DNA of 25,985 nt from positions 1 through 25,985 of the IMG/VR virus record IMGVR_UViG_3300030333_001270; one strand, written 5' to 3'. This document shows positions 1-25,985 of this stretch, one piece after another (within the stretch, counting starts at the first letter, position 1; the number at the start of each line of letters is the position of its first letter). This stretch comes from a virus. A program made the position numbers and the translations under genes. The notes under the pieces are model-generated. The model saw only the letters and a list, made by a program, of their open reading frames with translations. It did no database searches and was not told where the DNA came from.

Positions 1-1
1 A

Positions 2-1213
2 ACTGTTGTTACAGACACAATATTTTTATCAGCTGCCGCAAGTAAAGGGGATATTTATATTTCTTGTGATGATGGTAGTGGAGGAGCAGTTGCCAGTTTA
101 GTAGCAGGAGATTATATTCAAATAGTTGAGACTGACGGCTCTAACTCAGAAGTTAGAAGAATATTAAAAGACACAAGTGATACATTTAAATTAAATTATC
201 CATTAAGTTTTGACCACGCAAATAATGCTGTAGTTAACGAAGTTACCCATAGTTCTAGCATATATTATGACCATGTTATATCAGAGTCAACAAGCCTTGA
301 CACTGTATCATGGCATGTACATATGAAAGATAGTTCTGAAACTACGGCTAGAAATTTTGACCGAAGATATGTGGGGGGAATGATAGGTTCTACCACAATA
401 TCGGCTGAAGAAGGCGGAATGTTAGCAATGTCTTGGGACAGTGTAAACTTCCTAAACATGGTACACAACCAACAAAACCAAAAAACTGTTGGAGGTACAG
501 CCTTAGGAGATGATTATGTAGGAGCTAGTGTTGCAGCCAATATGCCTAGATTTGGATTGATGCAACAAATCGACCACGATGATATAGGTGAGCCTAGTCA
601 CAATGGTTCAAGTGCTAATAATGGTAGTGGTTACCCAACAACAGCCCCATATTATTTTTCAGAAGGAACTATAAAATTCTTTGGGCAAGAATTTGCTAGA
701 ATAAGAAGTTTTTCATTATCAATTTCAAATGGTGAAGAACCAAGATATTATATTGGTAAACAGGGGCGAAGAGCTAGGGGTCCTTACGAAATAAGAGAAG
801 GAGCTAGAGAATATTCTATGTCTGCCACAGTTGCCTTACCAGACGCAGATGTCAGTGCAAGTGCAACAGCAGCAAATTCCGACCAAGGTGGAGCATTAGA
901 ATTATTTAGACAATTATTATTAGAAGGTGATTATGGTGCTGGTGGGGGAAGCATACACAGAAGAGGTATGACTGCCAGCTTAAAGTTTGAAAGAGGGACT
1001 AATGATTATATAATAATAGACATACCAACATCTACTACAGCTGGTTCACCTACAGAGGGCACAGATAATACAAATCAATTAAATAAACAAGGTATTTTTA
1101 TCAATAGTGCTGCTCACGATATAACAGGTGACCAACAGTTAGAAGTAGATTTAAGTATGATATTTAGAAGTTTGAAGATAACAATAAGAGACAATGTACC
1201 AGTATATCCATAA
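2..1213 (+). CDS. Tail tube protein, 5' partial
   Basis: Structural protein, probably the subunit stacked to form the phage tail tube. The reading frame is open to the left edge of the window, so the true start lies outside; the first internal ATG (323) is not a believable start because the coding frame reads through upstream without a stop. The first 85 or so visible residues form a beta-rich module (GDYIQIV ... ILKDTSDTFKL) that resembles the modules repeated in the hub protein at 3827-8752. The rest has the Ser/Thr/Gly-rich, beta-strand character of siphovirus tail tube proteins, ending in a strand-rich segment (LEVDLSMIFRSLKITIRD). It sits directly before the tail assembly chaperone pair and the tape measure gene, which is the usual place for the tube gene. 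Family assignment is by composition and synteny; a major tail protein of another family is the main alternative. Confidence 0.6.
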   Translation, partial: TVVTDTIFLSAAASKGDIYISCDDGSGGAVASLVAGDYIQIVETDGSNSEVRRILKDTSDTFKLNYPLSFDHANNAVVNEVTHSSSIYYDHVISESTSLDTVSWHVHMKDSSETTARNFDRRYVGGMIGSTTISAEEGGMLAMSWDSVNFLNMVHNQQNQKTVGGTALGDDYVGASVAANMPRFGLMQQIDHDDIGEPSHNGSSANNGSGYPTTAPYYFSEGTIKFFGQEFARIRSFSLSISNGEEPRYYIGKQGRRARGPYEIREGAREYSMSATVALPDADVSASATAANSDQGGALELFRQLLLEGDYGAGGGSIHRRGMTASLKFERGTNDYIIIDIPTSTTAGSPTEGTDNTNQLNKQGIFINSAAHDITGDQQLEVDLSMIFRSLKITIRDNVPVYP

Positions 1214-1233
1214 ATAATAGTAAGGAGAAAAAT

Positions 1234-1608
1234 ATGGCGAAGCAAAGTAAAGCGTTTGACCACACTAAGTATACGGTCGAGCCCACAGTTGAAAGAAAGA
1301 AAGTAGTTATTGAACAGACTGGGGACGAGTTTGAAGTTTCTGTAAAAACTCTATCATGGAGTCGTAGAAACCAACTTGTATCCCGTTGTTTAAAGGTAAC
1401 TAATGATGGGCAATCTTCTTTTGATGGCGACAAGTATATAAGGGAATGTTTAAAGGAAATCGTTGTAGAAGCTCCTTGGGGACCTACAACAGAAGCCTTT
1501 TTAGTTTCTATTGACGATAGACTAGGTACTGCTTTAGAAAAAATAGTACCCAACGCTTTCGGAGATAAGGGAGGTCAAACACCTGATGAAATAAAAAAAG
1601 AGTCTTAG
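1234..1608 (+). CDS. Tail assembly chaperone, short (G-like) product
   Basis: This 124-residue protein lies between tail tube and tape measure genes, the place of the lambda gpG-type tail assembly chaperone, which coats the tape measure protein while the tube polymerises. An AAGGAG site lies a few bases before the ATG. The mature body is mixed alpha/beta with a central segment on the pattern LSWSRRNQLVSRCLKV. The last codons are ATA AAA AAA GAG TCT TAG, so the gene ends on an A-AAA-AAA slippery heptamer (1593-1599), and the -1 frame stays open to 1838. This strongly supports the chaperone identity because the pair G/GT is made by such slippage in most long-tailed phages. No sequence family was recognised independently of this architecture. 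Confidence 0.75.
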   Translation: MAKQSKAFDHTKYTVEPTVERKKVVIEQTGDEFEVSVKTLSWSRRNQLVSRCLKVTNDGQSSFDGDKYIRECLKEIVVEAPWGPTTEAFLVSIDDRLGTALEKIVPNAFGDKGGQTPDEIKKES

Positions 1609-1838
1609 TTTTCTTAAAGGGATTTCCTGTAGATAAAAGTGAGCACATGGTCTTTAGCTATTGGTTAACTATCATACAACTTTTAAAAACGGGTTTTTCT
1701 TGGGAGGCTATTACTAATTTCTCAGATGAAGAACTTTATATGGTTATGGGGGTAGAAATGGCACTATCACAAAGACAACAAGAAGCTGAGGCACGAGCAA
1801 GTGCTAAAAACTTTAAAGGACCCAAGGGGGGTTTTTAA
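1234..1838 (+). CDS. Tail assembly chaperone, frameshifted (GT-like) product
   Basis: Predicted fusion made by -1 ribosomal slippage, join(1234..1599,1599..1838), giving about 201 residues. After the two AAA codons at 1594-1599 the ribosome would move back one base and read AGA GTC TTA GTT from 1599; this frame has no stop until 1836-1838. The added 79 residues include a hydrophobic helix (WLTIIQLLKTGFSW) and an acidic/Gln-rich helix, as expected for the T part that contacts the tape measure protein. The first ATG in this part (1647) has no good ribosome binding site, so an independent small gene there is less likely. The fusion stops directly against the tape measure start codon at 1839. The slippery site is seen; the slippage itself is inferred from the family. 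Confidence 0.72.
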
Positions 1839-3227
1839 ATGCAGAGTATAATATCATTAGGTAATTTAGGGGACGGAGCCGGCATTTTAGCAGGAGGTGC
1901 TCAGTTTGCGGCAGGGTTTGGCAAAGGAGCTCTCAGAGGAGCAGGTGATACTGCTATGGGCACATTTAGGTTAGCTAAAGATACAGTACAAGCATTATCT
2001 CCAATAGGTGCTGGTGGTTCACAAGCTCGAAAGAGACTAATGGAAAGAGGTCTTATCGAAAGTGGTGTCAACAGAACTAAACAACTCAAACGAATGGCAG
2101 GCAAGACAGCAGGGTTACTAGGAGTAAATTTAAGCCTTGCGTCTATTTTAAAACAATCACAGATATTTACAGGAGTCTTTGGTACCGTATTTCAAATTTT
2201 AGGTGCCTTTGTTGATATTATGTTGATACCCTTAATGCCAGTAATTAAGTGGGTATTAAACAACATGATAGATTTTATTCCTACTGTTCAAGCAAAAGCA
2301 ACCGCTTTAGAAGGTTTTGGTAAGCGAGCGGCAGCGTATTTAGAAAGTGTAAAACAAGACACAAAAGGAGTTTGGGAATTTATTAAACGATTAGCCTCAG
2401 ACGCTTGGTCAAAAGTTATTGTACCTTGGTGGAAGGGTCCTGATGGATGGGAGAAAATTTATCAAGGACTGAAAGATGCAATTCAATGGGGGCTTGAGAA
2501 AGCTGGACTTTTAGAGCCCATTAAACCCATGACAGAAGTTGATGAGTTGATGGAAAAAATGATAAAAGAATTTGCAAGACAAGGCATGAAAATACCTAAA
2601 ATGCCAATGGGAGGAGGTTCAGCAATAGAATTTGAAGATTTAGGTGAAGTTCCAGAAGGATATGGTGGAGTTCCATCAATAGGTGTTATACCCTCGCAAC
2701 CCGGTGTTCCAAATACAGGTATACCACAGGCTATAGATTTTTTGCAAGCTGCAGAAGAAAATGTACAAAGAGGTTTTAGTTCAATATCTGGCACACTTAT
2801 GCCTCACGTTAGAAGTCCTATTACAAGAAAAGAAGGAGGCTTCCTTGGTTTGGGGTATCAAAGTCCTTTTCCCGACCCTTTACGTGAAGCAGAAAGGGGA
2901 ATACAACAAGAAATGGGGGCAAACTTTTTGTTAGAAACAGGAAAAAATATACTTGGAGCAATTGGGATAACACAAACCCCGCCACTACCCGGAGCTGGGG
3001 GAGTTTTAGGAATAGGTGCTGGTGGAGTTGCTCAGACTAAACCTTATGTAGAACAAGGTTCTGTAATGGAAGGACCACTACCCGGATATGACTCTCGGGC
3101 TGAAGGGGTAATTCAATTAACAAACCAAGCAAAAGACAATTACGTAGCTCGTTATCATGACGAAGCTGCTCAATATGAAGATGAACTATACTTTCAAGAA
3201 ATGATGTTAGGTGTAGGTAGATACTAA
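1839..3227 (+). CDS. Putative tape measure protein
   Basis: This 462-residue protein would set tail length by stretching through the tail tube. Evidence is position right after the chaperone pair and composition: a Gly/Ala-rich amphipathic N-terminal third, then a strongly hydrophobic stretch at about residues 105-145 (motif LGAFVDIMLIPLMP) of the kind found in tape measure proteins, followed by helical and then Pro/Gly-rich segments. It is short for the family; at the usual rough scale of 1.5 angstrom per residue it would predict a tail near 70 nm, if the whole chain spans the tube. The ATG abuts the stop of the frameshift frame, and its ribosome binding site is the G-run AAGGGGGG at 1825-1831, which could pair weakly with the preceding ACCC. 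No peptidase or lytic domain is visible. Confidence 0.6.
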   Translation: MQSIISLGNLGDGAGILAGGAQFAAGFGKGALRGAGDTAMGTFRLAKDTVQALSPIGAGGSQARKRLMERGLIESGVNRTKQLKRMAGKTAGLLGVNLSLASILKQSQIFTGVFGTVFQILGAFVDIMLIPLMPVIKWVLNNMIDFIPTVQAKATALEGFGKRAAAYLESVKQDTKGVWEFIKRLASDAWSKVIVPWWKGPDGWEKIYQGLKDAIQWGLEKAGLLEPIKPMTEVDELMEKMIKEFARQGMKIPKMPMGGGSAIEFEDLGEVPEGYGGVPSIGVIPSQPGVPNTGIPQAIDFLQAAEENVQRGFSSISGTLMPHVRSPITRKEGGFLGLGYQSPFPDPLREAERGIQQEMGANFLLETGKNILGAIGITQTPPLPGAGGVLGIGAGGVAQTKPYVEQGSVMEGPLPGYDSRAEGVIQLTNQAKDNYVARYHDEAAQYEDELYFQEMMLGVGRY

Positions 3228-3253
3228 ACTTTCAACGTAAATTTATCTAGTAT

Positions 3254-3266
3254 TGGTATAATATAA
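3254..3266 (+). promoter_or_regulatory. Extended -10 promoter-like site before the Dit-like gene
   Basis: TG-G-TATAAT with downstream ATAA lies in the 62-base gap between tape measure and Dit-like genes (TG at 3254-3255, TATAAT at 3257-3262). No convincing -35 hexamer is present at 16-18 bases. The same bases sit in an inverted repeat, GGTATA (3255-3260) with TATACC (3269-3274), so an RNA hairpin or an operator is an alternative. It matches the sites at 9312, 15525 and 24550. Confidence 0.45.
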
Positions 3267-3289
3267 TATATACCTTCGGAGGAATTTAA

Positions 3290-3826
3290 ATGGCAGACGA
3301 GTTATCGGTTTTCTTGAGAGATAATACACACGCTTCAGCTAGTGTTAGACTTGCATTGAAAGTAGACCAATTGGCACTATCTTTTTCAAGAACTCCAATA
3401 CATATTGCATTACCTAGAAGTAACCCAGAAATATTTGATTTGGGGACTACTAGACCAGCAATTACTATTTCGGGTCTTGTAGATAACATAGGGCAAGACA
3501 CAACAAACACAGATTCAACTACATTCAAAGGAATGCAGAAAGTATCTCACACAATATCAAGTAGTACGCAAACTTATTACGTTCCATATAAAAATTATTT
3601 AGAAGAAAAACTTATTACGTGGGTTACGAATGATTCAACCGATTTGCAATTAGAGATAGGAGATGCTACAACCCCAGAAAACACAAGTGGTGCTTTTGCC
3701 ACAGGTGGGGGAATTTATAGAGTAGCAGTACAACAATTTCAATTTTCTCAAACTCCGGGGTTAGAAGATAGGTGGGCATTTAGTATTTCCTTTGTTGCTA
3801 AGTTTAGAGATGGAGTAAGTTTCTAG
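3290..3826 (+). CDS. Distal-tail (Dit-like) or baseplate protein
   Basis: This 178-residue protein is Ser/Thr-rich and beta-rich, without membrane segments. It lies between tape measure and the large hub/fibre gene, where siphoviruses encode the distal tail (Dit) ring protein that joins the tube to the hub. The C-terminal half (GGGIYRVAVQQFQF, then WAFSISFVAKF) looks like paired strands of a beta-sandwich. The start is well set: GGAGG at 3278-3282 lies seven bases before ATG. A promoter-like site lies just upstream (3254-3266), so this could be the first gene of its own transcript. The role rests mostly on gene order; I do not recognise a named family. Confidence 0.45.
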   Translation: MADELSVFLRDNTHASASVRLALKVDQLALSFSRTPIHIALPRSNPEIFDLGTTRPAITISGLVDNIGQDTTNTDSTTFKGMQKVSHTISSSTQTYYVPYKNYLEEKLITWVTNDSTDLQLEIGDATTPENTSGAFATGGGIYRVAVQQFQFSQTPGLEDRWAFSISFVAKFRDGVSF

Positions 3827-6800
3827 ATGGCAATATCTACAGCAAATCCTACTAGAGTTATAAAACGACCTATTTTTTCTTATTGGAATGGGACTAAATG
3901 GAAAGATTTAGTTAGTTTCAGAGATGGGGCAGATACAAAACTAACAGCTACTTTGAATATGACTTTAGGTAGTGGTTCTAGTGACACAACCATTACAGTT
4001 TCATCAAGTGCAGAGTTTTATACTGGTCAGGTAATTAAATTTGGTACAAATACTGAAGAAATAGAAGTAGTATCTATAACAAATGCTACAACTATTGAGG
4101 TTGTCAGAGGAGGAACTCCTGCGGCAGCTTCTAGTGGAGCAGATATTTACGCAGCAGTAAGTGACGTTAGAAGATGGGAACTTAGGGACGTACTGCATAG
4201 TCCACTAATGTTAAAAGTAATTATAAACAACGCTTCAAGTCATCCTTTCTCTAATAGTGGAGGCACTTCAAAAGGACCTCATACGGGCAAGTTAGGGGAT
4301 TTTACCCATATAAAACTTAGAGATGGGGACACACACCATATATATTTTTACGGAGTCGCTTATTCTGTAGACGATAGTTTTAAAATAGGTGTAGGACAAG
4401 TCTTATCAATAACTGGTTATGATTTTCTACAAGAGCTTGCAGAGAATACTGGGTTGAGTGGAAATGCTTATTTGTTAGATAATGATGCTAATTTATATGA
4501 CGCAGTAGTTCCTCATGGTACAGGAGCAGATAATTTAGATGTGACAAATAAAATATGGCAAACCACAGCCGACCCACCACAGGGTTATATATCTAGTAGA
4601 AGTGGTTTAATAAAATCTCTTATAGGTGAGTATAGCCAAAACATAACAACTCCGGGCGATGCTAATTCAACGGACACGGATAGGTTTACAGAATCAGTAG
4701 CAAAATTAACTAATGGTAATAAAACAAACGAAGCATATAAATTAAATGGATTGACGTCAATATTAAGTAGAATAAAAAGTTTAGCTTCTACAGAACCACA
4801 CACTGCGTCTGCAAGCACCGAAATAACACATGGTTATGATTACTATTTAGACTCTAACTGGGGAGGAGCAACAAACGGTACTAACGCTTCCTTAGCTGAC
4901 CATAAACCAACAGCTTTTTTTAATTATTTTAAACGTGGCGAACGCCCACACAATACTCCAGCGACATATGGATTAAGTGTACACTATCCCTCTCCAGACA
5001 CTACGTCTGGGGGAGATTTTACAAAGACAACTATGCGTGTACCTATGACATCTTATGATGTAAAAAGACCTAAAAACGAAATTTATACTGATGCTACAGT
5101 TTCTTATGTGGAAGAAATGTTGCAGGAATCTACTAACGCAGATGGGGAAAAAGTAAAAGAAGTTGTTCGACACTCTGATTCTGATACATTTGAATTACTT
5201 ACAATACACTCAGCATCAAACTTTGATGATTTTGTTGATTTGTTAGAAGCTTCTGAAATGAATATTGAAGCCGGCACCCCGGGAACAGAAAGTGCCGAAT
5301 ATCTAAAAGTTAAAATTGCAGAAGTAAATGATAACAGTGCTACCGATGGGACAGGAATAAGCAATAGTGACACTTCTGTAACAGTAGACACACCGGGAGT
5401 AGCAGGATTTTATGTAGGACAACACATTGAAATAGATAGTGAGGTAATGAAAGTAACTGCTATTAATACAGGTACTGATACACTTACTGTAACAAGAGGG
5501 GAAGCTCACCCCACAACAGGAGCATCAACATCAGCAGTCGAACATGACAACAATGCAGATATTTATGCTTTAGAAGTTTGCAGATTGCAGTGGACAGGAC
5601 TCCAAGGGGGTACTGCTACAGTAGCTTCAGATGCAACATCTTATGTGTTAATTTCAGATGTAGATGAAAGAATAAGTGAAAACTCAACTTACTGGTCGGC
5701 AGATACAACCTTTAAAGGTCAGACATCTTCTAGTGCGTCTTTCGAAATAACTTCTAGACCAAGAACAAAGTATGGAATTAGAAGAAATATTAGTAAGGGA
5801 TTAGGGACTGTAAAAAATCCTAATGAACAAAGAAAAGCTATATATTCTTTACTAGAAAAAAGAACAGAATCTTTAGTAAGAGCTAAATTTCAAACACATG
5901 AAAGACCATTTTTTTATTTTGATGATAGTCCAGCTTCTGTTACAACTCATAGTGGTTCAGACCAAACTCTTGATTTGTCTGGTAGTGAAAACCCACAAAA
6001 TTATGGTGTAACGGCAGGTATGTTAGTTGTAAAACTAGACGCTAATAATGCAGCCACGAATGTTTATGGTTATGTAACTAGTACAACTTCAGCTGCCGTG
6101 AGAATAACATGGTCATATGGGACAGTTTCGGCTAGTGATACTGTGAGATATTATGTACCAGTTAGAGCTGGAGATTATATTAGTGTAAGAAATGATTTAT
6201 CTAATTTAAATACAAATATGCTTGTAACTAAAATTGACCATAAAGATGAGAATGGAGTTATGGTTTCTAGATTTGATACCGTAGGTGTTGACTCAAATCA
6301 AAAACAGGGAGCAGACGCTCCTAAACCTATGTTTGCTTCTGATGCAGAAGTTTTATTTGATGATTTTGGGACTCCAGAAGCACCATCACAACCAGAACCT
6401 GCTGAAGCAACGATAGTTACAATAGACAATACCTTTTCAGCAGCCAATGAGCATACAGTAGCATGGACAGCAGGAAATTTATATGTAGGCAGTAAGAAAT
6501 ATTCTATAGATGCCGGTAATTCGGGGACGCTAACAACGCAAGCAGGTCCGTATGTTTTATATTATTTAAAAGGTCAATCAAGTTATTCCGTAAAAACTCT
6601 AAGTAATTATGAACTTATTTCTAAATATAGTACTAAATATATAAGAATAGCTACTGTTGAGTATGATATTCCTTTTGCTCGATGGGTTTTGGCTAAAAGT
6701 ATTAGGGGAGCAAACGCAACCAAGTTGAAGGCTGGCGAAGTACTACAAGGACAATCTTTAGAAGCATCACTAATAAAAAAAGGTAATCAACAATTTTCAT

Positions 6801-8752
6801 CTAATCTAAGTTTTGAAGCCACAGGTACTGCAGGTGAATATAACAAGATAAAATTTGGGCAAAAAGGTTCTATAGGTAGTGACGCTACAATTTCATTCGC
6901 AGACAATACTACTGAAACAGTTGCTCACAGTGCTACAGGGACAGCTACCTTAGGAAACAGTTCATCTGTTGCAGGGGGTAAGGTTACACTAGCAGCAGGA
7001 GTTAATTATATATATAAAGAAGTAGGTAAACCTGAAATTACTACAATGAGGGTAGCTAATGAATCCACAACAGAACAAACTTTTGAGGTAACTTCTACAT
7101 CAAATATGTTTGTAGGACAAATGTTACAAATTTCAGAAGAAAATTTAACTGTTGCTAGTATTACAGATGGGGACACTGTAGAGCTAAATAGGGCACAAAA
7201 TAGTACGTCTGCCCAAACACACGCTCTAAATGATGGTGCCGGCAACCCAATAAAGATATATGCAGTAAACGATGCAAATAAAACCTTAAAAATAACTAAT
7301 ACTTATTCAGATGTGTTTCAAGATGACCGAATGTTATTGGCTACAGTAGTAGTAGCTAGTTCAGATGATGGTTCAGATTCTCCTTCTATATTCCCATTTA
7401 CAGGTAATGAAGCTACAGTTTCAGCCGGTGTATTGGCAGCCGGGGCTATAAAAGCAGATAATATACAAGCTAATGCAATTACTGCGTCTAAACTAGAAGC
7501 AAATTTAGTTTTAGCAAACAATATAAAAACAAGTGCTACGGTTAATGATGGTAGTGGTACAGACCAAAATGGCTTCATTATAAATAGTACTGGTATAACA
7601 GCATTTAATGCGGCTGGGGAACAACAAATAAAAATAAATCCAACTACAGGAAGATTAGCTAGTGGGGCTAATGAAGATAAAGTAGTAATATATGCTGGTG
7701 GGCTGTCTGTATTGGAAGACACTAATGACTTAACTATTGATTCTGTGTTTACTATGGGGTCTTCAGCTAAGAATAGGGCTTCTGGGGCAACTTTAGCAGA
7801 AGATTTAGATGCTAGTGAAGATGGTGTAGATGTTTCTGATGGAACAAAATTTGCATTAGGTAATGTACTTGTAATAGATAGTGAAAAAATGCTTGTGAAA
7901 AGCATATCATCTAACACGTTGACTGTTGAGCGTGAATATGAAGGCACAAGTGCAGCTACTCATTCAAATGGTACTGCAATATCCTTTAAAGGATTAGGAA
8001 CTTATTACCAAACAGTTTATGATGGGGGGTCTGGAGGAGTTCCGGCAACTTACTGGCTAGCTACTACACAAGAAGCTGCAAGTGGTACTGGGTATAACAC
8101 ATCTAGGTCTCATGATATCTACATTGGCCCCAACGAAGCAGATAAAACTATGTTTATTGTTCCTAGTTATACAGCCGATATTGGTAATGATGGAGTTGTT
8201 TTAGGTTCTAATAGTAAGGAGTTTTGGGCTTTGTATTCTGGGCTAGTGTACGCTAGTACAACCCCCGGAGCAAGTGCCCCTGCCTATACATTCAATGGTG
8301 ATACAGATACAGGTATGTATCAAAGTTCTGCAGACCATCTAGCATTTTCTACTGGGGGTAGCTTAAGAGCTAGATTTTATAGTGGGGGGTTAGTGTTAGA
8401 TACTATAGGAACTACTTCAGGTACTGACTTAGTTGTTAATGGTTCAAACGTAGTACATAAAAAATCATCATCTAAAAAATATAAAAGAAATATAGTTGAT
8501 ATAGCATTAGATTCAAATAAAGTATATGACTTAAGACCTGTGGACTTTGAATGGAATGAAAAATCGGCTACAGAAGGTAAGAAAGATATTGGATTAATAG
8601 CGGAAGAAGTAGCAGAAATACTACCAGAAATAGTAAATTATAATAATGATAACACACCAGAAAGTGTTTCATACGACAAATTATCAGTAATACTACTAAT
8701 GGAAATAAAAAAACTAAAAGAAGAAATAGAAAAACTAAAGGAGAATAAATAA
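3827..8752 (+). CDS. Tail hub/fibre protein with C-terminal S74 intramolecular chaperone
   Basis: This 1641-residue tail tip protein probably combines the hub and the receptor-binding fibre. The N-terminal region (about residues 10-35 and 115-210) is hub-like, with YGVAYSVDDSFKIGVGQVLS recalling the beta-barrel of gp27-like hub proteins. Four related beta modules follow at about residues 40-112, 515-582, 1082-1147 and 1325-1388. The C-terminus is a clear peptidase S74 domain: SSKKYKRNI with Ser1548 and Lys1553 in the S-x4-K spacing of the self-cleaving dyad, then DLRPVDFEW and GLIAEEVAEILPEIV, ending in a short coiled coil (KKLKEEIEKLKENK). In known S74 fibres the chaperone domain trimerises the stalk and then cuts itself off; here residues from Ser1548 on would be released. 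The gene abuts the Dit-like gene and its stop overlaps the next ATG by one base. Confidence 0.85.
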   Translation: MAISTANPTRVIKRPIFSYWNGTKWKDLVSFRDGADTKLTATLNMTLGSGSSDTTITVSSSAEFYTGQVIKFGTNTEEIEVVSITNATTIEVVRGGTPAAASSGADIYAAVSDVRRWELRDVLHSPLMLKVIINNASSHPFSNSGGTSKGPHTGKLGDFTHIKLRDGDTHHIYFYGVAYSVDDSFKIGVGQVLSITGYDFLQELAENTGLSGNAYLLDNDANLYDAVVPHGTGADNLDVTNKIWQTTADPPQGYISSRSGLIKSLIGEYSQNITTPGDANSTDTDRFTESVAKLTNGNKTNEAYKLNGLTSILSRIKSLASTEPHTASASTEITHGYDYYLDSNWGGATNGTNASLADHKPTAFFNYFKRGERPHNTPATYGLSVHYPSPDTTSGGDFTKTTMRVPMTSYDVKRPKNEIYTDATVSYVEEMLQESTNADGEKVKEVVRHSDSDTFELLTIHSASNFDDFVDLLEASEMNIEAGTPGTESAEYLKVKIAEVNDNSATDGTGISNSDTSVTVDTPGVAGFYVGQHIEIDSEVMKVTAINTGTDTLTVTRGEAHPTTGASTSAVEHDNNADIYALEVCRLQWTGLQGGTATVASDATSYVLISDVDERISENSTYWSADTTFKGQTSSSASFEITSRPRTKYGIRRNISKGLGTVKNPNEQRKAIYSLLEKRTESLVRAKFQTHERPFFYFDDSPASVTTHSGSDQTLDLSGSENPQNYGVTAGMLVVKLDANNAATNVYGYVTSTTSAAVRITWSYGTVSASDTVRYYVPVRAGDYISVRNDLSNLNTNMLVTKIDHKDENGVMVSRFDTVGVDSNQKQGADAPKPMFASDAEVLFDDFGTPEAPSQPEPAEATIVTIDNTFSAANEHTVAWTAGNLYVGSKKYSIDAGNSGTLTTQAGPYVLYYLKGQSSYSVKTLSNYELISKYSTKYIRIATVEYDIPFARWVLAKSIRGANATKLKAGEVLQGQSLEASLIKKGNQQFSSNLSFEATGTAGEYNKIKFGQKGSIGSDATISFADNTTETVAHSATGTATLGNSSSVAGGKVTLAAGVNYIYKEVGKPEITTMRVANESTTEQTFEVTSTSNMFVGQMLQISEENLTVASITDGDTVELNRAQNSTSAQTHALNDGAGNPIKIYAVNDANKTLKITNTYSDVFQDDRMLLATVVVASSDDGSDSPSIFPFTGNEATVSAGVLAAGAIKADNIQANAITASKLEANLVLANNIKTSATVNDGSGTDQNGFIINSTGITAFNAAGEQQIKINPTTGRLASGANEDKVVIYAGGLSVLEDTNDLTIDSVFTMGSSAKNRASGATLAEDLDASEDGVDVSDGTKFALGNVLVIDSEKMLVKSISSNTLTVEREYEGTSAATHSNGTAISFKGLGTYYQTVYDGGSGGVPATYWLATTQEAASGTGYNTSRSHDIYIGPNEADKTMFIVPSYTADIGNDGVVLGSNSKEFWALYSGLVYASTTPGASAPAYTFNGDTDTGMYQSSADHLAFSTGGSLRARFYSGGLVLDTIGTTSGTDLVVNGSNVVHKKSSSKKYKRNIVDIALDSNKVYDLRPVDFEWNEKSATEGKKDIGLIAEEVAEILPEIVNYNNDNTPESVSYDKLSVILLMEIKKLKEEIEKLKENK
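3944..4162 (+). repeat. Beta module copy A in the hub protein
   Basis: Residues about 40-112. Core pattern FYTGQVIKFGTNTEEIEVV, then SIT-x3-TIEVVRGG and a closing GADIYAA. It is the first of four diverged protein-level copies in this gene. Confidence 0.6.
5369..5572 (+). repeat. Beta module copy B in the hub protein
   Basis: Residues about 515-582. Core pattern FYVGQHIEIDSEVMKVTAI, then TLTVTRGEAH and a closing NNADIYAL. It is the copy closest to copy A in its F-Y-x-G-Q opening and its IYA ending. Confidence 0.6.
7070..7267 (+). repeat. Beta module copy C in the hub protein
   Basis: Residues about 1082-1147. Core pattern MFVGQMLQISEENLTVASI, then TVELNRAQNS and a closing PIKIYAV. It is more diverged, but has the same order of strands and the same spacing. 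Confidence 0.55.
7799..7990 (+). repeat. Beta module copy D in the hub protein
   Basis: Residues about 1325-1388. Core pattern FALGNVLVIDSEKMLVKSI, then TLTVEREYEGT and a closing NGTAISF. It is the last copy before the fibre shaft and S74 domain. Confidence 0.55.
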
Positions 8753-15547: not shown

Positions 15548-15817
15548 ATGGGAAAATACAACGAAAAAGCTATTCTAAAAGAAATATCTAAGTATGTAGA
15601 CAATACATATGACCAGCACTACAGTGAGGGTGAAGTTCAGACGTTAGACTTTATAGCGGCTTGTGGGGATGCCAAAGCTTTCTGTAGGGGTAACATTCTT
15701 AAGTATGCTTCCCGATATGATAAAAAGGGAACACCTCGTAAAGACATTCTAAAGATTATTCATTACGCAATGCTCCTTTTACATTTTAACGATAAGGAAA
15801 AAAATGATACTAACTGA
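15548..15817 (+). CDS. DUF3310 family protein
   Basis: This 89-residue protein matches the DUF3310 pattern common in phages: His24-Tyr25, then LDFI at 33-36, FCRGNILKYASRY at 45-57 and a C-terminal helix with DILKIIHYAM. The family is often annotated loosely as nucleotide kinase or nucleotide metabolism protein; its activity is not settled. AGGA lies at suitable spacing before ATG, and a promoter-like site overlaps the upstream gap. It overlaps the next gene by 14 bases. Confidence 0.75.
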   Translation: MGKYNEKAILKEISKYVDNTYDQHYSEGEVQTLDFIAACGDAKAFCRGNILKYASRYDKKGTPRKDILKIIHYAMLLLHFNDKEKNDTN

Positions 15818-16800: not shown

Positions 16801-17050
16801 TTCTTCAGAGTCTACCCGAATGTCTGTGATAGAAGCAATTTTAGCAGAAAGAGAAAGACAAGACAAAATCTGGGGGGTACAAGACCACGATGATTCTTGG
16901 TGGAATATTATTACCGTTGAAAGAAATGGTGATATTGCTAGAGAAGTATATGGACAAAATGAAACAAAACTGTTTATCGAGCTAATACAGACCTGTGCTA
17001 CATACTTAGCGTGGGCTGAAGCAGTTCGTAGGAGATATAAAAATGGATAA
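16787..17050 (+). CDS. MazG-like nucleotide pyrophosphohydrolase-type protein
   Basis: This 87-residue protein begins with ILAERERQDKIWG, the opening motif of short phage MazG-like proteins, followed by His34, Trp38-Trp39 and a second helix pair (LFIELIQTCATYLAWAEAV). Members are thought to hydrolyse nucleoside triphosphates or related alarmones. The metal-binding EExxE helix is degenerate here (VERNGDIARE, with Glu45 and Asp49), so activity is uncertain. ATG 16787 overlaps the previous gene by 14 bases; ATG 16820 is an alternative that would still keep the motif. Confidence 0.6.
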   Translation: MSLSNSSESTRMSVIEAILAERERQDKIWGVQDHDDSWWNIITVERNGDIAREVYGQNETKLFIELIQTCATYLAWAEAVRRRYKNG

Positions 17051-17984: not shown

Positions 17985-18273
17985 AGATTATACAGACCAA
18001 GAAAATTTGATAGCTAGGTGTTTAGACGAATTTGGGTTGAGATATGAGCAACAGGCGTACTATCATCCATATATAGTGGACTTTTATGTTCCAGAGCTAA
18101 AGATGGTTATTGAGGCAGATGGAGTGTATGGGCACCTAGGTAAAAGGGATAGGAAAAGAGATAAGGATTTACAATCTATTGAGGACATAGAGTATATTGT
18201 ACATATAAAAGAAAAAACATTAGAAAAAATTAAGGATATATTATGGCAGGAATTAACCAGATTAAGCCAATAA
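17968..18273 (+). CDS. Vsr/DUF559-like endonuclease
   Basis: This 101-residue protein belongs to the compact PD-(D/E)XK-type group that includes Vsr and DUF559 proteins. Visible signature: ENLIARCLDEFGLRYEQQ near the start, then IVDFYVPELKMVIEADGVYG with Asp38, Glu49 and Asp51, then His56 and RDRKRDKDL. These proteins cut DNA at mismatches or junctions. No ATG exists in frame; GTG at 17968 is the likely start and overlaps the recombinase gene by 17 bases. The role in this phage is open: mismatch-linked nicking or branch processing both fit the neighbourhood. Confidence 0.7.
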   Translation: MNLPPRDYTDQENLIARCLDEFGLRYEQQAYYHPYIVDFYVPELKMVIEADGVYGHLGKRDRKRDKDLQSIEDIEYIVHIKEKTLEKIKDILWQELTRLSQ

Positions 18274-18929
18274 AGAGACCCACAAAGGCTAGAAAAACTA
18301 CAAACAAAGCTCTTGCTGACACATGGTTAGAAGATGTGATAGATGCTTCTTTAGAAGGAGTAATGGAAGCCCCTAAGGCAGGGGTTTTTTACCCATCGTC
18401 TTTAGGCAATCCTTGTGACCGATATTTATGGTTGTGCTATAACGGGCTGATGATAGAACAGAATTTGCCAGCTAATTTAGAAAGAATTTTTCAAAACGGA
18501 AGTTCTTTAGAAGACAGAGTAGACAGATGGTTTACGAAGTTAAATATTCTTGTAGAACGAGAGTTATCCGTCAAACAAGATATCCCACCTATCTCTGGAA
18601 GAATAGACTTCATAATTAATCACGCTACGTACAATCACATGCCTGTAGAATTAAAATCAATAAACACTAATGGTTTTAGTAAACTAAGAAGCCCAAAACC
18701 AGAACATGCTGTTCAAATTCAAATGTATTTAAACATGGGTGATTATGATATAGGAACAGTTTTATACGAAAACAAAAACGACCAAAAGATAAAAAGTTTT
18801 TTAGTCGAGCGTGACCCTAAGGCTTGGGATGAAATTTTAGCTAGGTGCTTCAACGTTCAAGAGATGATAGCCAGACCAGATGAATGCACAGGAGCTACTT
18901 GGTGTGCTTGTAGAAAGGTGGAGGACTAA
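18243..18929 (+). CDS. Cas4/RecB-like exonuclease with Fe-S-type cysteines
   Basis: This 228-residue PD-(D/E)XK exonuclease shows GRIDFII with Asp122, PVELKSI with Glu136 and Lys138, and QIQMY at 158-162, the QxxxY motif of RecB/Cas4 nucleases. Cys58 (GNPCDRY) plus the C-terminal C215, C221 and C223 (CTGATWCAC) give the one-plus-three cysteine layout that holds a 4Fe-4S cluster in Cas4 and AddB-type proteins. No Cas1, Cas2 or repeat array is near, so the role is phage recombination or end resection, not CRISPR adaptation. A terminator-like hairpin with six T lies inside the gene at 18367-18390. It overlaps the preceding nuclease gene by 31 bases. Confidence 0.8.
   Translation: MAGINQIKPIKRPTKARKTTNKALADTWLEDVIDASLEGVMEAPKAGVFYPSSLGNPCDRYLWLCYNGLMIEQNLPANLERIFQNGSSLEDRVDRWFTKLNILVERELSVKQDIPPISGRIDFIINHATYNHMPVELKSINTNGFSKLRSPKPEHAVQIQMYLNMGDYDIGTVLYENKNDQKIKSFLVERDPKAWDEILARCFNVQEMIARPDECTGATWCACRKVED
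18367..18390 (+). terminator. Intragenic intrinsic-terminator-like hairpin
   Basis: CCCCT (18370-18374) pairs with AGGGG (18380-18384) around the loop AAGGC, extended outward by two A-T pairs and one G-T pair, and followed by TTTTTT at 18385-18390. The shape is that of a rho-independent terminator on the + strand, but it lies within the Cas4-like coding sequence (codons for APKAGVF). Confidence 0.45.
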
Positions 18930-19438: not shown

Positions 19439-19886
19439 GTATTTAGGATTAGATTGTTCTAGCTTGGCTGTGCATGGGGCTTTGATAGACGACAAAGAAG
19501 AACTTATATCTTTATACAAATGGAATAGTAAAGAAAAAAGTTTTGACTTAAGATTCCCCGATATGATTAAAGGATTTTCGGAAGAATTAAGTACAATAGA
19601 TAAAGTAGATTTTGCAGCGATTGAAGCAGCTATTTTTATTCAGAATCCTAAAGCAACCATTGCTATAGCTAATGTAGTTGGGGCAGTTTGGGGGTTTTTA
19701 TTAAAAGAAGATATATCTACAACAATTATAGATAACAGAAGATGGAAAAAAATTATTGTTGGTAAAGGTAATGCCAATAAAGATTTTATTAAAAATTTTG
19801 CAATAGAAAAGTGGGGCGATAAGTTCCCAGAACAAGATTACGCTGATGCAGCTTGCATAGCGTTATGGAACAAGAGGAGGTTCTAG
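19434..19886 (+). CDS. RuvC-like Holliday junction resolvase, ATT start
   Basis: This resolvase of about 150 residues has an RNase H fold and would cut four-way DNA junctions before packaging. The frame before TTG 19464 reads RYLGLDCSSLAVHG, which is the first RuvC strand with the catalytic Asp; starting at 19464 would remove it. In frame, between the stop at 19413 and this motif there is no ATG, GTG or TTG, but ATT at 19434 sits where Met is expected (x-RYLGLD) and AAGGGGG lies six bases before it. Further motifs are FAAIEAAIF with the second acidic residue, GKGNANKDFI, and a C-terminal DYADAACIALW with the last Asp residues. ATT overlaps the TAG of the upstream gene (ATTAG), so translation is likely coupled. 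Confidence 0.78.
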   Translation: MRYLGLDCSSLAVHGALIDDKEELISLYKWNSKEKSFDLRFPDMIKGFSEELSTIDKVDFAAIEAAIFIQNPKATIAIANVVGAVWGFLLKEDISTTIIDNRRWKKIIVGKGNANKDFIKNFAIEKWGDKFPEQDYADAACIALWNKRRF

Positions 19887-20393: not shown

Positions 20394-20894
20394 ATGCCAA
20401 AACATATACCAGACGAAATAAAACTAAAAGCGATGGAGCTTTTTCTAAAAGGAGATAAGACAGCTAAACAGATAGCTAAAGAAATCTCTACAGCAGAACA
20501 TAAAGTTGCTCCTCCTACTATTTATATGTGGGCAAAAAAAGAACGCTGGGGGGAACAAAAAGCAGTGGCTATAGCTGATAGACAAACTGAATTAGCTGAA
20601 ACAGAAGGAGAACGATTTGCTAGGCTGCAAGCAGCTCAGTTAGATGGGTATACAGAAATAGCAAATAAAGCTACGAGAGAAATGACAAGTTTACATTTTG
20701 ACCGAGCTTTAGATGCAGCAAGAGCAGCAGACATAGGTATCAAAGGGCAAAGAGAAGTTCTGCAAGGTATGATAAATCTTGAGTTTGTACAGGACATAAT
20801 GAATATTTTAATAGAAGAAATTACAGACCAAGAAACTTTACAGAGAATTGGAGTAAAACTAAAAGCCATAGAGCAAAAACATAGGGATATATAA
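20394..20894 (+). CDS. Terminase small subunit-like protein
   Basis: This 166-residue protein begins with an HTH (residues about 12-53: ELFLKGDKTAKQIAKEIS ... PPTIYMWAKKERWG) that fits the DNA-recognition domain of small terminases. The following segment is a long helical stretch (ARLQAAQLDGYTEIANKA; ALDAARAADIGIKGQREVL) able to form the oligomerisation core, and a C-terminal helix that may touch the large subunit. It directly precedes the large terminase, separated by two bases. It would bind the packaging start site and regulate the motor. Confidence 0.72.
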   Translation: MPKHIPDEIKLKAMELFLKGDKTAKQIAKEISTAEHKVAPPTIYMWAKKERWGEQKAVAIADRQTELAETEGERFARLQAAQLDGYTEIANKATREMTSLHFDRALDAARAADIGIKGQREVLQGMINLEFVQDIMNILIEEITDQETLQRIGVKLKAIEQKHRDI

Positions 20895-20896
20895 TT

Positions 20897-22564
20897 ATGG
20901 CTAAAGATATCATCAGTGTTGAAGGGGCATTTAATATGCTTTCTCAAGGGCTTATAGAACAAAAGAAATATGAAGTAGGTTCTTTTAGAGATTTTATAGA
21001 AAATATATGGGCTCTTTCATACGATAACCCAGAGTATTTTAAGGCTTGGCATGTAAGTTTACTTGCAGAAGATATTGAAGAATGTTTAGAAACAGGACTA
21101 AATTATGTAGGAGTTCTTCCCAGAGGACATTTTAAATCTACAATACTAGGACATGCATTTAGTGTTTGGAGATTATTGAAAGCTCCTAGAGACATGTCTA
21201 TACTTTACTTATCTTATAGTGATGGAATGGCTAAATACCATATTGCTGAAATAAATAAAGTAGTTTCTAGAAACCCAATTATTCCAGAATTATTAGTCAA
21301 TAGAAATCCAAAGGCAGATTTTTCTGCTAGGTTTTATAAAAATAACAAACCTATGGAAATTATGCATGGGGGTTTATTTTCTTTCAAACGAGGTATGCAC
21401 GTCAATGGAGCATTGATTGCTGATGACGTATTGAGAGACCCAGAGAACCCATTGAACATGGGACAAATAACTAAAGTAGAAGACCACTTTATGACAGAGT
21501 CTATGTTCATACCATTGAAAGAAGCTCCTGTTATTGTTGTAGGAACACCTATGATGCCGGGAGATATACTAGCGAAGTTGCAAGAAGACTCTAGATTTAA
21601 AGCAAGAGTTTTGCCTGCGTTAGACCCGGTGCCGGGCAGAAGAGTATTAGCTCCTGAAATAATGAGTGAGGATTACTTGTTAGCACAACAGAAGGCTAGA
21701 CCTAAATCGTTTGCTTCGGAGTTTATGTTGGTGCCTCACTTTGCTACAGAGTCTTACTTTAACGAAGAAGATATTGCAAGTTGTGAAGACGAATCTTTAA
21801 GGTCTTATCCAGCGACTAAAAAATTTACAGACTGGGAATCAGGTGACCAAATCTTTGGGGGCTTTGATGTAGGGAAAAAGAAACACCCATCTCATTTAGT
21901 TATTTTTAGAAAAAGGGGAGAAGCTATAGAACAAATACATCAATCCTTTTTAGAGGGGTGGAGTTACTCTGACCAGATAGAATATTTGAATGAAGTAGCA
22001 GATAACTTTGATTTAACTTCAGGGTATGTAGATAACACTAGAGGAGAATTAGAAGACCGTGGATTAGACGCTAGATGGAGGTCTATGAATTTCACAAGAA
22101 AAAGTAAAAATACTATGGCTCAAGTCTTTGAAAAATTTGCCTTAGATGGTATATTAAAACTAATCAAAGACGAAAGACAGAAGCAACAGATTTTGTCCGT
22201 TAGTAATGAATTAAAAGCACCCGATACTCCAATGGGGCATGGGGATGCTTTTTTCTCTATTGCTATGGCTCTACAAGCAGTTCATGATACAGCATATAAG
22301 TTTGTAGATTTAGGGAGTGCTACTGACTGGTTCAATGCCGTCAGTCCGGGAGAAACCCCAGAGAGTAGAAGACAGGGTAGAGAAGAGCTAAAGGGGGGAA
22401 CCCCTTCGGATACACCTGCTGTTAATCCTTTACAAATGCAGCCAGTCAATCCAAATGTTGTAGCAGAGTCTGCACCAAACCCACAATGTAAGGAAGGAGT
22501 TTGTAACCCAACTTTTTGGGTGCCTGAACGAGGTCTTTGCATATATTGTGGTTTTAGAAAATAA
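20897..22564 (+). CDS. Terminase large subunit with C-terminal zinc motif
   Basis: This 555-residue packaging motor has an ATPase part showing the P-loop LPRGHFKST at 74-82, Walker B ALIADDV with Asp176-Asp177, and the coupling motif VVGTPMM at 214-220. The RNase H-like nuclease part shows FGGFDVGKKK with Asp324, GYVDNTRG with Asp379 and GHGDAFFSIAMAL with Asp450, the three acidic residues for metal-dependent cleavage. After residue 475 there is a Pro/Gly-rich linker and then C531-x4-C536-x11-C548-x2-C551, a zinc-ribbon-like end not usual for large terminases. A strong hairpin with GGAA loop lies in the linker (22391-22406). The protein works at the portal vertex, feeding DNA into the capsid. 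Confidence 0.88.
   Translation: MAKDIISVEGAFNMLSQGLIEQKKYEVGSFRDFIENIWALSYDNPEYFKAWHVSLLAEDIEECLETGLNYVGVLPRGHFKSTILGHAFSVWRLLKAPRDMSILYLSYSDGMAKYHIAEINKVVSRNPIIPELLVNRNPKADFSARFYKNNKPMEIMHGGLFSFKRGMHVNGALIADDVLRDPENPLNMGQITKVEDHFMTESMFIPLKEAPVIVVGTPMMPGDILAKLQEDSRFKARVLPALDPVPGRRVLAPEIMSEDYLLAQQKARPKSFASEFMLVPHFATESYFNEEDIASCEDESLRSYPATKKFTDWESGDQIFGGFDVGKKKHPSHLVIFRKRGEAIEQIHQSFLEGWSYSDQIEYLNEVADNFDLTSGYVDNTRGELEDRGLDARWRSMNFTRKSKNTMAQVFEKFALDGILKLIKDERQKQQILSVSNELKAPDTPMGHGDAFFSIAMALQAVHDTAYKFVDLGSATDWFNAVSPGETPESRRQGREELKGGTPSDTPAVNPLQMQPVNPNVVAESAPNPQCKEGVCNPTFWVPERGLCIYCGFRK
22391..22406 (+). other. GC-rich hairpin with GNRA-type loop in the terminase linker
   Basis: AAGGGG (22391-22396), loop GGAA, CCCCTT (22401-22406): a perfect six-pair stem in otherwise AT-rich DNA, within codons 499-504 of the large terminase. 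There is no T-run after it, so it is not a typical terminator. Confidence 0.4.
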
Positions 22565-22587
22565 GAAAAATACAGGAGAATATTAAA

Positions 22588-24531
22588 ATGATACTAAGAA
22601 ATGAAACCAACCCACGTCTAGAAAACACACCAGTTATTACTGACCAAGCAAACGTTATATTGAATCATAGGTATCTTTTAAAAAACTCTGACAATGAAGT
22701 AATAGAAACTCCAGAAGAATTATTTATGAGAGTTGCTAAAGCTGTTGCTGAAATTGATATTGACTATGGTAAGTTGGTAGTTGACGCAAAACTTACTACG
22801 AATGATTTTTATTTAATGATGGCAAATTTAGAGTTCATTCCAAACTCTCCAACTCTTATGAATGCAGGAACTGAACAAGGAACCTTGTCAGCATGTTTTG
22901 TACTGCCTTTAGAAGATAGCATGGAAGACATTATGAAAGCAGCTACTGATACTGCAATGGTTCAGAAGTTTGGAGGTGGTACTGGGTTTGCGTTGTCGCA
23001 TTTAAGACCAAAGGGGGATAAGATACAATCTACTCATGGTGTTGCTTGTGGTCCTATAGAAGTGCTAAAGACACTTTCAAGGGTTTCTTCTATGATTACA
23101 CAGGGTGGTAAAAGGGATGGTGCTAATATGGCAGTAATGTCTATATATCATCCAGACATATTAGATTTTATTGACTGTAAAAAAGTCGAAGGAGAGATAC
23201 ATAACTTTAATATTTCGGTTGGGGTGGACTCTAACTTTATGAAAGCCGCTGAAAATAACATGGAGTATAACCTTATAAATCCTAAAACTAATGAAATAGC
23301 TGGTTCTTTAAATGCCAGAGATGTATTTAACAAAATAGTTGCAGGGGCTTGGAGAAATGGTGAACCCGGAATGATATTCCTAGACCAAGTAAATAAAGAC
23401 AATCATGTAAAAGAAACATATGGAGAAATGATTGCTACCAATCCTTGTGGAGAACAACCACTATTAGGTAATGAAAGTTGTAATTTAGGTTCTGTTAACT
23501 TAGCAAAATTTTATACAAAGGCTGATGGTCCTACTCATGGGTGGGACGAAAAGGTAGACTGGAATCGGCTAGAGTGGGTTACACGGAAAGCAGTACATTT
23601 CTTAGATAACGTAATTGACGCAAACAAGTATGCTACTTCTGAGATAGAACAAATGACTAAAGCTACTAGAAAAATAGGGTTAGGAGTTATGGGATTTGCA
23701 GACTTGTTAATACAAATGCACATACCATACAACTCTTCAACAGCTAGAGATGTTGGGGCAAAATTAATGTCTAAGATTAAAGAGTGGGCAGATGACGAGT
23801 CTAAAGAGTTAGCTAAAGTTAGGGGTACTTTCCCAGCTTGGAGTGATAGCAACTACAACAAAGACACAGAAGCTTATAGAAATCATTGTAGATTAACAGT
23901 TGCTCCTACAGGAACAATATCAATGATAGCTGACACATCTAGTGGTATTGAACCTACATTTGCATTAGCTTGGAAAAAACAAAACATTCTTGAAGGTAAG
24001 ACACTAAACTACGTAAACAAATATTTTGAAGCAGATGCTAGAAAGCATGGGTTTTATTCTGAAGACTTGATGGATTATTTAGCTGAGGGTGGTTCGCTAG
24101 AATCAGTTCCAGACTTACCAGACTGGGTAAAGGCTGTATACGCAACAGCTCCGGAAATATCCCCCGAAGACCATGTGCTAATGCAAGCATCCTTTCAAAA
24201 ACATTGTGACTCAGGTATTTCTAAAACTATTAACTTTGCTAATTCTGCTACTGTAGAAGATGTAGAAAATGCTTACATGCTTGCTTGGGGAGAAGGTTGT
24301 AAGGGAATTACAGTCTATAGAGCTGGCAGTAGAGAGAAGGAAGTTTTAGTAAAAGGTAACAAAGAAAAAGCTGAACAACCTACTTTAGATGGGTTTGAAC
24401 TGGAAAACCAACTTATAAACGAAGATGTAGCTTTACCAGAACATAATTGTTGTGATAATCCAAATATAATTTTTGAGTCTGGATGTCACACTTGTAAAGT
24501 CTGTGGGTGGAGTGCTTGTGTGATTTCTTAG
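22588..24531 (+). CDS. nrdJ: Class II (B12-dependent) ribonucleoside reductase
   Basis: This 647-residue enzyme reduces ribonucleotides to deoxyribonucleotides with adenosylcobalamin, supplying DNA precursors. Seen: NSPTLMNAG at 86-94, [12 protein letters not shown] with Cys103 (first redox cysteine), the [16 protein letters not shown] glycine-rich loop, NPCGEQ with Asn285, Cys287 and Glu289 (radical site), [10 protein letters not shown] with Cys298 (second redox cysteine), and [17 protein letters not shown]. The C-terminus has C633-x2-C636-x2-C639 and Cys644 ([12 protein letters not shown]) for re-reduction. No ATP-cone precedes the core and no small subunit gene is near, which both fit class II. 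AGGAG precedes the ATG; only 23 bases separate it from the terminase, too few for a cobalamin riboswitch. Its place between terminase and portal is unusual. Confidence 0.9.
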
Positions 24532-24549
24532 TAAATACGAAAATTATAG

Positions 24550-24559
24550 TATAATATAA
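24550..24559 (+). promoter_or_regulatory. Promoter-like site before the portal operon
   Basis: TATAAT at 24550-24555 followed by ATAA, in the 54-base gap after the reductase gene. It shares the ten-base TATAATATAA with the site at 3257 but lacks the TG of an extended -10 and any clear -35. It would drive the unknown gene at 24586 and the portal gene. Confidence 0.4.
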
Positions 24560-24585
24560 AGATAGAAAAGAATTAGGAGAAGTTT

Positions 24586-25032
24586 ATGGTAATTGGTAAT
24601 ATGTTATCAGATTCAGGACAGCAGTATGTAGCTACCAAAGATGATAAGAATACATGGAGAATATTAGATACTTGGCACGCAGAGTTAAAACAAATGAGTG
24701 CCGATGATGATATCCCTGATGACAGCCCAGCAGTAGTAGCTTTATCTGAGGGTCAATTTATTGCCTTAATAAAGGAAGCTGCAAGTGAAGGAGTATTAGA
24801 GAATGTTAATATTACTTCTGATGTCGATACAGCTGAGTTAGAACATATAATTGAAACAAAAAATTTAGAAATAGATAGGCTGAGTGCTGAACTTGACAGA
24901 GCTAAAAGTGAAAAACAGACTGTTGAAAGAGCAGCGGCTCACTCGGAAGAATTTGAACTAAAGGAGAAAGCTATGGATAACATATTAAAATTAGTATCCA
25001 TGCAAGATATGACTAAACTAAGCAGGGATTAA
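24586..25032 (+). CDS. Acidic coiled-coil protein before the portal gene
   Basis: This 148-residue protein is not recognised. The N-terminal half is mixed (TWRILDTWHAELKQM, then VVALSEGQFIALIKEAASEG); the second half is a charged coiled coil (LEHIIETKNLEIDRLSAEL, RAKSEKQTVERA). The overall charge is acidic. Strong AGGAGA precedes the ATG, and a promoter-like site lies 27 bases further up, so it likely opens the head-gene transcript. A scaffold-like or portal-assembly role would fit coil and place, but scaffolds usually follow the portal, so this stays open. Confidence 0.6.
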   Translation: MVIGNMLSDSGQQYVATKDDKNTWRILDTWHAELKQMSADDDIPDDSPAVVALSEGQFIALIKEAASEGVLENVNITSDVDTAELEHIIETKNLEIDRLSAELDRAKSEKQTVERAAAHSEEFELKEKAMDNILKLVSMQDMTKLSRD

Positions 25033-25034
25033 TA

Positions 25035-25985
25035 ATGAAACTATCCGAATATTTACCACAAGTTCCCCAAATGCAGCAACAAATGGCTGATTTGAACAAA
25101 CAAATTAGTTTATTAGATGTTATGAAGTCTACTGGGGATACAGGGAATGCCCCAACTATAGGTCTTGACCAAATTGTAAACACTTGGGTTAGACACCAAA
25201 TGGCATATCGCCAACAGCTTGTACAAGATTTGCAAACTATTGCGATGTCTGTAGAAGAAATAAGGGGTCCATTGTCTCACATTACGGGGGAAGTATTTAG
25301 AAGGGGGATTGAAATAGTTCCCAAAATAGAAAACCCCGATTCGGAACAGAAAGAGAGACTTTTGAAATGGCTGAAAGACTGTAACGTTTTTGACCAAAGT
25401 ATGGAAGAGGTTCTTAGACAATTTCATTTTGACGTGAACTCATTAGACGATGGGTTTTTGTACTTAGCTAAAGAATATAAAGACTCTGGTGATGGGAACG
25501 TTACATCTAGACTACAAGAAATTAGAAGACTTAATCCAGCATTAGTAGAATTTGATTTAGACCAAGCTGGGTTACCTAAGAACACACACTTTATATGTCC
25601 TATACATCGTGAAGTAATTCAAGAATCTGGTGGTAAATGTGTAGAGGAAGATTGTAATGTAATTCTTCATCCTGCTATGTATAAGTATTATCATCGAAAC
25701 CAACATATGTATTTTACAGATTCTGAAATTATACACCTATCTAAATTTTCACCTTCTGAAACATATGGATGGTCACCATTACTTACTATTTTTGAAAAAG
25801 CTTTGACGCTAGTAGGTATGGATAAAAATTTATACAGGTACTTTTTTGAAAGAAAAATGCCTGCAAGTATGTTGATGGTCACTACAGATGACCCAGAGAG
25901 TCTAAGAAGAGAGCGTGAACATATTGCGGCACAAACACGACTAGACCCAAACTATATACCTATGGTAGCTGTATCTGCTAGAAAC
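25035..25985 (+). CDS. Portal protein, 3' partial, with CxxH/CxxxxC insert
   Basis: The first 317 residues of a portal protein are in the window; the frame is open at the right edge. The portal is the dodecameric ring through which DNA is packaged and released. Typical parts are RGIEIVPKI (88-98), QEIRRLNPALVEF with DLDQAG, then IIHLSKFSPSETYGWSPLL and LYRYFFERKMPASMLMV (267-282), the conserved tail of the clip-to-stem region. Unusual is an insertion at 188-207: C188-x2-H191 and C202-x4-C207, right after the NPALVEFDLD strand, which could bind zinc. The ATG lies three bases after the previous stop. Portal identity rests on these motifs plus the position after terminase. Confidence 0.8.
   Translation, partial: MKLSEYLPQVPQMQQQMADLNKQISLLDVMKSTGDTGNAPTIGLDQIVNTWVRHQMAYRQQLVQDLQTIAMSVEEIRGPLSHITGEVFRRGIEIVPKIENPDSEQKERLLKWLKDCNVFDQSMEEVLRQFHFDVNSLDDGFLYLAKEYKDSGDGNVTSRLQEIRRLNPALVEFDLDQAGLPKNTHFICPIHREVIQESGGKCVEEDCNVILHPAMYKYYHRNQHMYFTDSEIIHLSKFSPSETYGWSPLLTIFEKALTLVGMDKNLYRYFFERKMPASMLMVTTDDPESLRREREHIAAQTRLDPNYIPMVAVSARN

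Follow-up and report, generated by a model that had tools for sequence, protein, structure and literature searches.

Complete loss of Type II restriction-site palindromes in an uncultured marine phage and its switching among close relatives

Introduction

The IMG/VR virus record IMGVR_UViG_3300030333_001270, a linear DNA of 25,985 bases that is classed there as a probable fragment and was analysed here in its entirety (the window), raises a simple question: why do a few short palindromes fail to occur in it? The window derives from a tailed double-stranded DNA phage that is uncultured, marine and without close cultured relatives. A sequence-only reading had reported that GATC and GCGC are absent and GGCC nearly so, and had ascribed this to restriction by host enzymes with the same targets. 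Complete or almost complete elimination of sites, mostly orthodox Type II sites, has been described in about one-tenth of the viral genomes studied, with 17% under-represented against 7.5% eliminated (PMC6286503). Based on the results presented below, the window and its relatives are best explained by the classical process in which host restriction drives the elimination of Type II sites, and we put the probability of this explanation at about 0.86.

Missing words in the window

By exact count, the window contains no GATC, no GCGC and a single GGCC at position 8126, just as the letters had been read. These zeros lie far outside chance under all methods of expectation, though the expectations themselves differ. 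For GATC, 52.5 copies are expected from a maximal-order Markov model (z -8.7), 57.4 from codon shuffling (z -10.7) and 83.5 from base composition, the last within the range of 70-90 that the sequence-only reading had given; for GGCC, the first two methods, which that reading had proposed as the check, yield 22.6 (z -5.5) and 18.6 (z -4.6); and for GCGC, they yield 7.9 (z -3.3) and 12.7 (z -4.0), which makes GCGC the weakest of the three sites by the window alone. All three sites thus stood, but the list was incomplete: CCWGG is also missing (24.1 expected by Markov model and 20.0 by codon shuffle, z -6.8), as are CGCG and GAATTC (the latter against 7.0 expected). On the Markov-type expectation, observed/expected falls below 0.1, the level taken as elimination, for GATC (0/52.5), CCWGG (0/24.1), GGCC (1/22.6) and GCGC (0/7.9). 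In addition, CCSGG is in surplus (21 against 7.5 by codon shuffle), an excess that is expected if CCWGG mutates into CCSGG. The word TTAA is lowered rather than lost, with 140 copies against 196 by Markov model, a ratio of about 0.7 (codon-shuffle z -8.1); its deficit is similar in many GATC-free relatives, and its frequency is normal in contig L037 and the outer lineages.

As the sequence-only reading had stated, there is no general loss of four-base palindromes: CCGG (30), AGCT (142), CTAG (102), GTAC (79) and CATG (60) are present in normal numbers, and GANTC is not depleted (76 against 60 expected). The component trinucleotides are abundant, with 512 GAT, 63 GCG (about 65 by the earlier estimate) and 187 GGC (nearly 200), and the GC content is 36.7%, close to the estimated 35%. 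When codons were shuffled within genes in 2,000 trials that kept each protein and its codon usage, the lowest counts obtained were 39 for GATC, 10 for CCWGG, 6 for GGCC and 4 for GCGC, against observed counts of 0, 0, 1 and 0, respectively. Similarly, Asp codons before C are always GAC, as the sequence-only reading had noticed (53 GAC and 0 GAT, compared with 165 GAC and 348 GAT elsewhere), and Ile after G is never encoded by ATC (0/71, compared with 39/474 elsewhere). The codon shuffles and the Asp codons show that the depletion acts at the DNA level, beyond protein sequence or codon usage.

Completeness and selectivity among relatives

A search with the large terminase recovered 80 IMG/VR loci at 75-100% identity, and queries with the polymerase and the variable hotspot described below added more. 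Merging of loci by exact overlap gave 132 and then 173 distinct contigs, the outermost two of which (L237 and L238, at only 24% to the query) serve as an outside check. GATC is nearly all-or-none in the 168 contigs for which 10 or more copies are expected: 103 contain not a single copy, against a pooled expectation of 2,898, 2 have ratios below 0.1, 46 stand at 0.5 or above, and the 17 between these values belong mainly to outer lineages. For CCWGG, 85 contigs are informative, and 59 of them have no copy, against a pooled expectation of 1,032. GATC is also zero in each stretch examined of two long records, one of 66 kb (L168-L170) and one of 82 kb (L171-L174). Three near-free contigs (L046, L050 and L148) hold three to five residual GATC each; in L050, all of them, three GATC, lie within 115 bp (6580-6697) close to one end, the rest of the contig being GATC-free, perhaps through recombination.

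The main GATC-free group (67 contigs, 799 kb) was defined by the absence of GATC and GCGC, so that its observed/expected figures for these two sites (2/1838 and 0/256) are descriptive. The other sites played no part in the definition, and their figures are 1/132 for CGCG, 11/765 for CCWGG, 1/115 for GCTNAGC, 4/72 for GRCGYC, 7/86 for CCTNAGG and 18/231 for GAATTC. In an exhaustive scan of words of four to six bases, run on each group, the 799 kb of this group had no word near zero beyond the palindromes given here, and no non-palindromic one; in small groups, TTCGAA, GAGCTC and a few non-palindromes of low count have ratios under 0.15. Among the roughly 170 contigs, none has zero CTAG, AGCT, TGCA or GTAC, and GANTC is normal. 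The scan and the control palindromes agree that only palindromic Type II words are affected. All of the eliminated words belong to the standard Type II targets (DpnII/MboI, HhaI, HaeIII, EcoRII/MvaI, EcoRI, AvaII, BlpI, AcyI).

Switching between lineages

The set of missing sites changes between close relatives. When GATC, CCWGG, GCGC, GGCC and GGWCC were scored together, 24 patterns were found in the 61 fully scorable contigs, and the window has the pattern without GATC, CCWGG, GCGC and GGCC. The clade L009-L016, whose terminase lies beside that of the window, has near-normal GATC and lacks CCWGG, GCGC and GGCC; a group of six contigs (L026, L028, L015, L031, L139 and L022) lacks GATC and CCWGG, yet carries GCGC in excess (pooled 229/131); and in the outer lineages L212-L232, GGWCC is almost gone and GATC is in many cases merely reduced, to 0.2-0.4. 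The GATC state changes at least four times on the terminase tree and at least six times on the polymerase tree; the two trees differ in places, as is expected of mosaic phages.

Three metagenomes hold both GATC states: IMG 3300025151 (observed/expected 58/75 in L016 and 0/19 in L049), IMG 3300024344 (62/69 in L013 and 0/66 in L019) and IMG 3300020410 (81/94 in L011 and 0/20 in L106). The occurrence of GATC-rich and GATC-free members in the same metagenomes excludes laboratory and assembly causes. At aligned positions that have GATC in L012, the window has it at 0 of 46, compared with 41 of 83 kept for GATG, and the commonest replacement is GACC; between L043 and L063, 25 of 32 replacements of GATC are silent in the protein. 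The tolerant clades of L012 and L043 have 9 of 49 GATC sites in common, somewhat below the control words (0.26-0.37), and this sharing fits either regain or repeated loss.

Gene content, host and methylases

Nearly all genes of the window lie on the + strand, and about 98.6% of it is coding. The following features were assigned.

2-1213, + strand: tail tube protein (PF18906), 5' end open
8126-8129: the only GGCC of the window (exact count)
9370-9885, + strand: sigma-70 region 2 protein (PF04542; 4.5e-11)
10512-11759, + strand: DnaB-like replicative helicase (phrog_19; 6.7e-49)
11971-12834, + strand: DNA primase (phrog_47)
13537-15516, + strand: family A DNA polymerase (phrog_17; 5e-112), left border of the variable hotspot
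15804-16595, + strand: variable hotspot gene; its 263-aa product contains what was read by eye as a putative PD-(D/E)xK-type motif (KDIDFLL...IELK)
17043-17984, + strand: UvsX/RecA-like recombinase (phrog_97), right border of the hotspot region
17968-18273, + strand: DUF559/Vsr-like small nuclease, kept in GATC-free and GATC-rich relatives alike
18243-18929, + strand: Cas4-like exonuclease
19464-19886, + strand: RuvC-like resolvase
20394-20894: TerS-type open reading frame (PF06056), just upstream of the large terminase
20897-22564, + strand: large terminase, the marker for finding relatives
22588-24531, + strand: large subunit of ribonucleotide reductase (PF02867/PF00317), resembling class II in its best named matches
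25035-25985, + strand: portal protein, cut by the window end, with matches to haloarchaeal tailed viruses only

Against 50,697 phage records, the terminase has matches at 23-26% only, and the sole matches of the portal among the same records are at 29-30%. The sigma-70-like protein argues for a bacterial host, and the host is probably bacterial. The terminase had no match by peptide pattern in collections of 84,980 genomes, and no cultured phage linking the family to a host was found. The nearest cellular matches of the reductase are mostly low-GC marine metagenome-assembled genomes of SAR202 Chloroflexota (58-61% identical). A profile search with the terminase, run without a positive control, gave no match in 250 genomes of the order of a SAR202 assembly. 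The SAR202 genomes reached via the reductase have normal GATC and few methylases; with the terminase also not found in the 250 genomes, no host was assigned, and the reductase gives a weak hint.

No Dam, C5 or N6/N4 methylase family was found in the window. Among the records of relatives, which are fragments, PF02086 was found in 0 of 50, PF00145 in 2 of 51 and PF01555 in 1 of 51. The near absence of phage methylases makes site removal plausibly the main defence. The absence of PF02086 from the 50 records led us to reject a phage-encoded Dam as the shield of the GATC-tolerant relatives. In L037, a GATC-free and GGCC-free relative, a C5-cytosine methylase gene (2818-3942) adjoins the polymerase, and its cluster occurs also in L100, L104 and L110.

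Host restriction as the probable explanation

Selection at the DNA level against specific palindromes, the first half of what the sequence-only reading had proposed, is strongly supported by the codon controls, the restriction of the effect to palindromes, the on/off differences between lineages and the controls from the same samples. For the second half, host restriction is the best explanation; we infer it as the agent, together with enzymes of the named specificities. The hosts would carry Type II enzymes for GATC, CCWGG, GCGC/CGCG and GGCC, with GAATTC or GGWCC added for some lineages. Genome copies with an unprotected site would be cut, and the sites would be removed, largely through synonymous changes, down to zero; with a methylase of their own being rare in these phages, site removal would be what chiefly protects them. 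Where lineages meet different enzymes, they would come to lack different sets of sites, and a lineage unexposed to an enzyme would keep its site near normal frequency.

Several observations weigh against this explanation. Zero residual sites over tens of kilobases exceeds the partial deficits that are common elsewhere, so that something other than ordinary host restriction may conceivably be at work. The SAR202 genomes reached via the reductase have normal GATC, 12 of the 13 genomes reached in this way are without a C5 methylase, and the searches yielded neither a host nor a cognate enzyme.

The variable hotspot and alternative explanations

The interval between polymerase and UvsX is a hotspot, in which relatives hold PD-(D/E)xK-like genes (recognised by eye), HNH genes, AIPR genes, a C5 methylase gene or nothing. 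The gene at 15804-16595 of the window is replaced in relatives by other genes, among them AIPR in GATC-tolerant ones. Membership in the AIPR family (PF10592) is indicated by a score of 54 bits for L011 against a curated cut-off of 25, and all six members match; PADLOC labels the AIPR gene of L043 as AbiU (6.9e-10), and AIPR is not in the window. Predicted structures were unusable, with a mean predicted local distance difference test score (pLDDT) of 35 for AIPR and 30 for the 263-aa hotspot protein of the window. Among 71 contigs that span the hotspot, 12 have AIPR and are all GATC-tolerant, 52 without AIPR are GATC-free, and 7 are GATC-tolerant without AIPR, all from outer lineages. In the core family, AIPR is found in 12/12 GATC-tolerant spanning contigs versus 0/52 GATC-free ones. 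The trees show just two or three changes of AIPR, only one pair informs the independent-pairs test, and the association between AIPR and GATC is non-significant after phylogenetic correction.

Restriction-modification operons commonly encode AIPR genes (PMC2292703), and the N-terminal domain of DndB reportedly belongs to the AIPR family (PMC3506569). A tentative and rather doubtful proposal is that the AIPR/AbiU-type gene encodes an anti-restriction protein that renders GATC harmless, the phages alternating between purging GATC and carrying the gene. Such a protein might, for instance, block a host nuclease directed at GATC or a modification-restriction system linked to GATC. AIPR may also merely mark lineages with other hosts. 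It is one candidate gene that may let a phage keep GATC.

The abundance of putative PD-(D/E)xK, HNH and AIPR genes in the hotspot, together with the conserved small nucleases (DUF559/Vsr-like and Cas4-like), would suit a different origin of the missing words, in which phage endonucleases cut these sites in host DNA and the phage genome was purged to survive its own enzymes. However, the hotspot of GATC-free genomes holds a wide variety of genes or is empty (L033, L035, L053, L076 and L109), the conserved nucleases occur in GATC-rich relatives too, no hotspot gene was seen to track the loss of GATC, CCWGG, GCGC or GGCC, and five or more specificities would be required. Self-protection of this kind is therefore improbable, and a phage-encoded self-cutting nuclease was rejected as neither the hotspot content nor the conserved nucleases follow site loss.

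Equally slight is the chance that GATC was purged by a host system other than orthodox restriction, such as methyl-directed mismatch repair, a methyl-dependent Type IIM enzyme or phosphorothioation at a GATC motif. GATC is the most completely lost site, avoidance of GATC due to Type IIM enzymes is known (PMC6286503), and HF1-type haloviruses lack GATC, for which a phosphorothioation motif has been discussed (PMC7230728). Such a system would nevertheless be only one of several agents, as the loss of CCWGG, GCGC, GGCC and others is uncoupled from that of GATC across lineages, and orthodox Type II restriction accounts for all sites alike. Finally, an artefact introduced during sampling, library preparation or assembly, or some peculiarity of mutation or composition, has a negligible probability and is refuted for the family as a whole: GATC, GCGC and GGCC are targets of common laboratory four-base cutters, but the same metagenomes also yielded relatives in which GATC is normal, the 66- and 82-kb records are GATC-free in each stretch examined, the codon-shuffle and Markov controls stand against it, GATG, GATA and GATT, like other palindromes than those lost, occur at normal frequency, and cytosine deamination fails to explain the loss of an adenine-methylation site.

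Comparison with known systems

Under host restriction, the words missing from each lineage would seem to document the enzymes that it had to survive. More than 170 contigs of one marine phage group, with complete loss of at least five sites switched between close relatives, form a natural experiment in which the speed and order of site loss can be measured, and the barcode of missing sites could help to recognise the restriction systems of an uncultured host.

The mechanism itself has long been known; the family adds a new case of unusual completeness, in which more sites are lost at once and the switching is clear. In the double-stranded DNA phages that Rusinov et al. 2018 studied (PMC6286503), orthodox Type II palindromes are near zero, as here, and GATC, which is commonly avoided there, is likewise lost here. 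The differences are that at least four or five sites are gone at once per genome, in combinations that differ among close relatives, and that the enzymes are putative here. In the haloviruses of the HF1 group (PMC7230728), GATC is wholly absent from all isolates and CTAG is absent too, so that extensive avoidance of palindromes within one group is a shared trait; in contrast, CTAG is near normal here, the host is probably bacterial, and the lost set comprises GATC, CCWGG, GCGC and GGCC. Among pelagiphages (PMC9516812), some subgroups have lost the methylation-linked site GANTC and others have not, an on/off behaviour similar to that described here, whereas in the present family GANTC is undepleted, and different sites are lost, completely.

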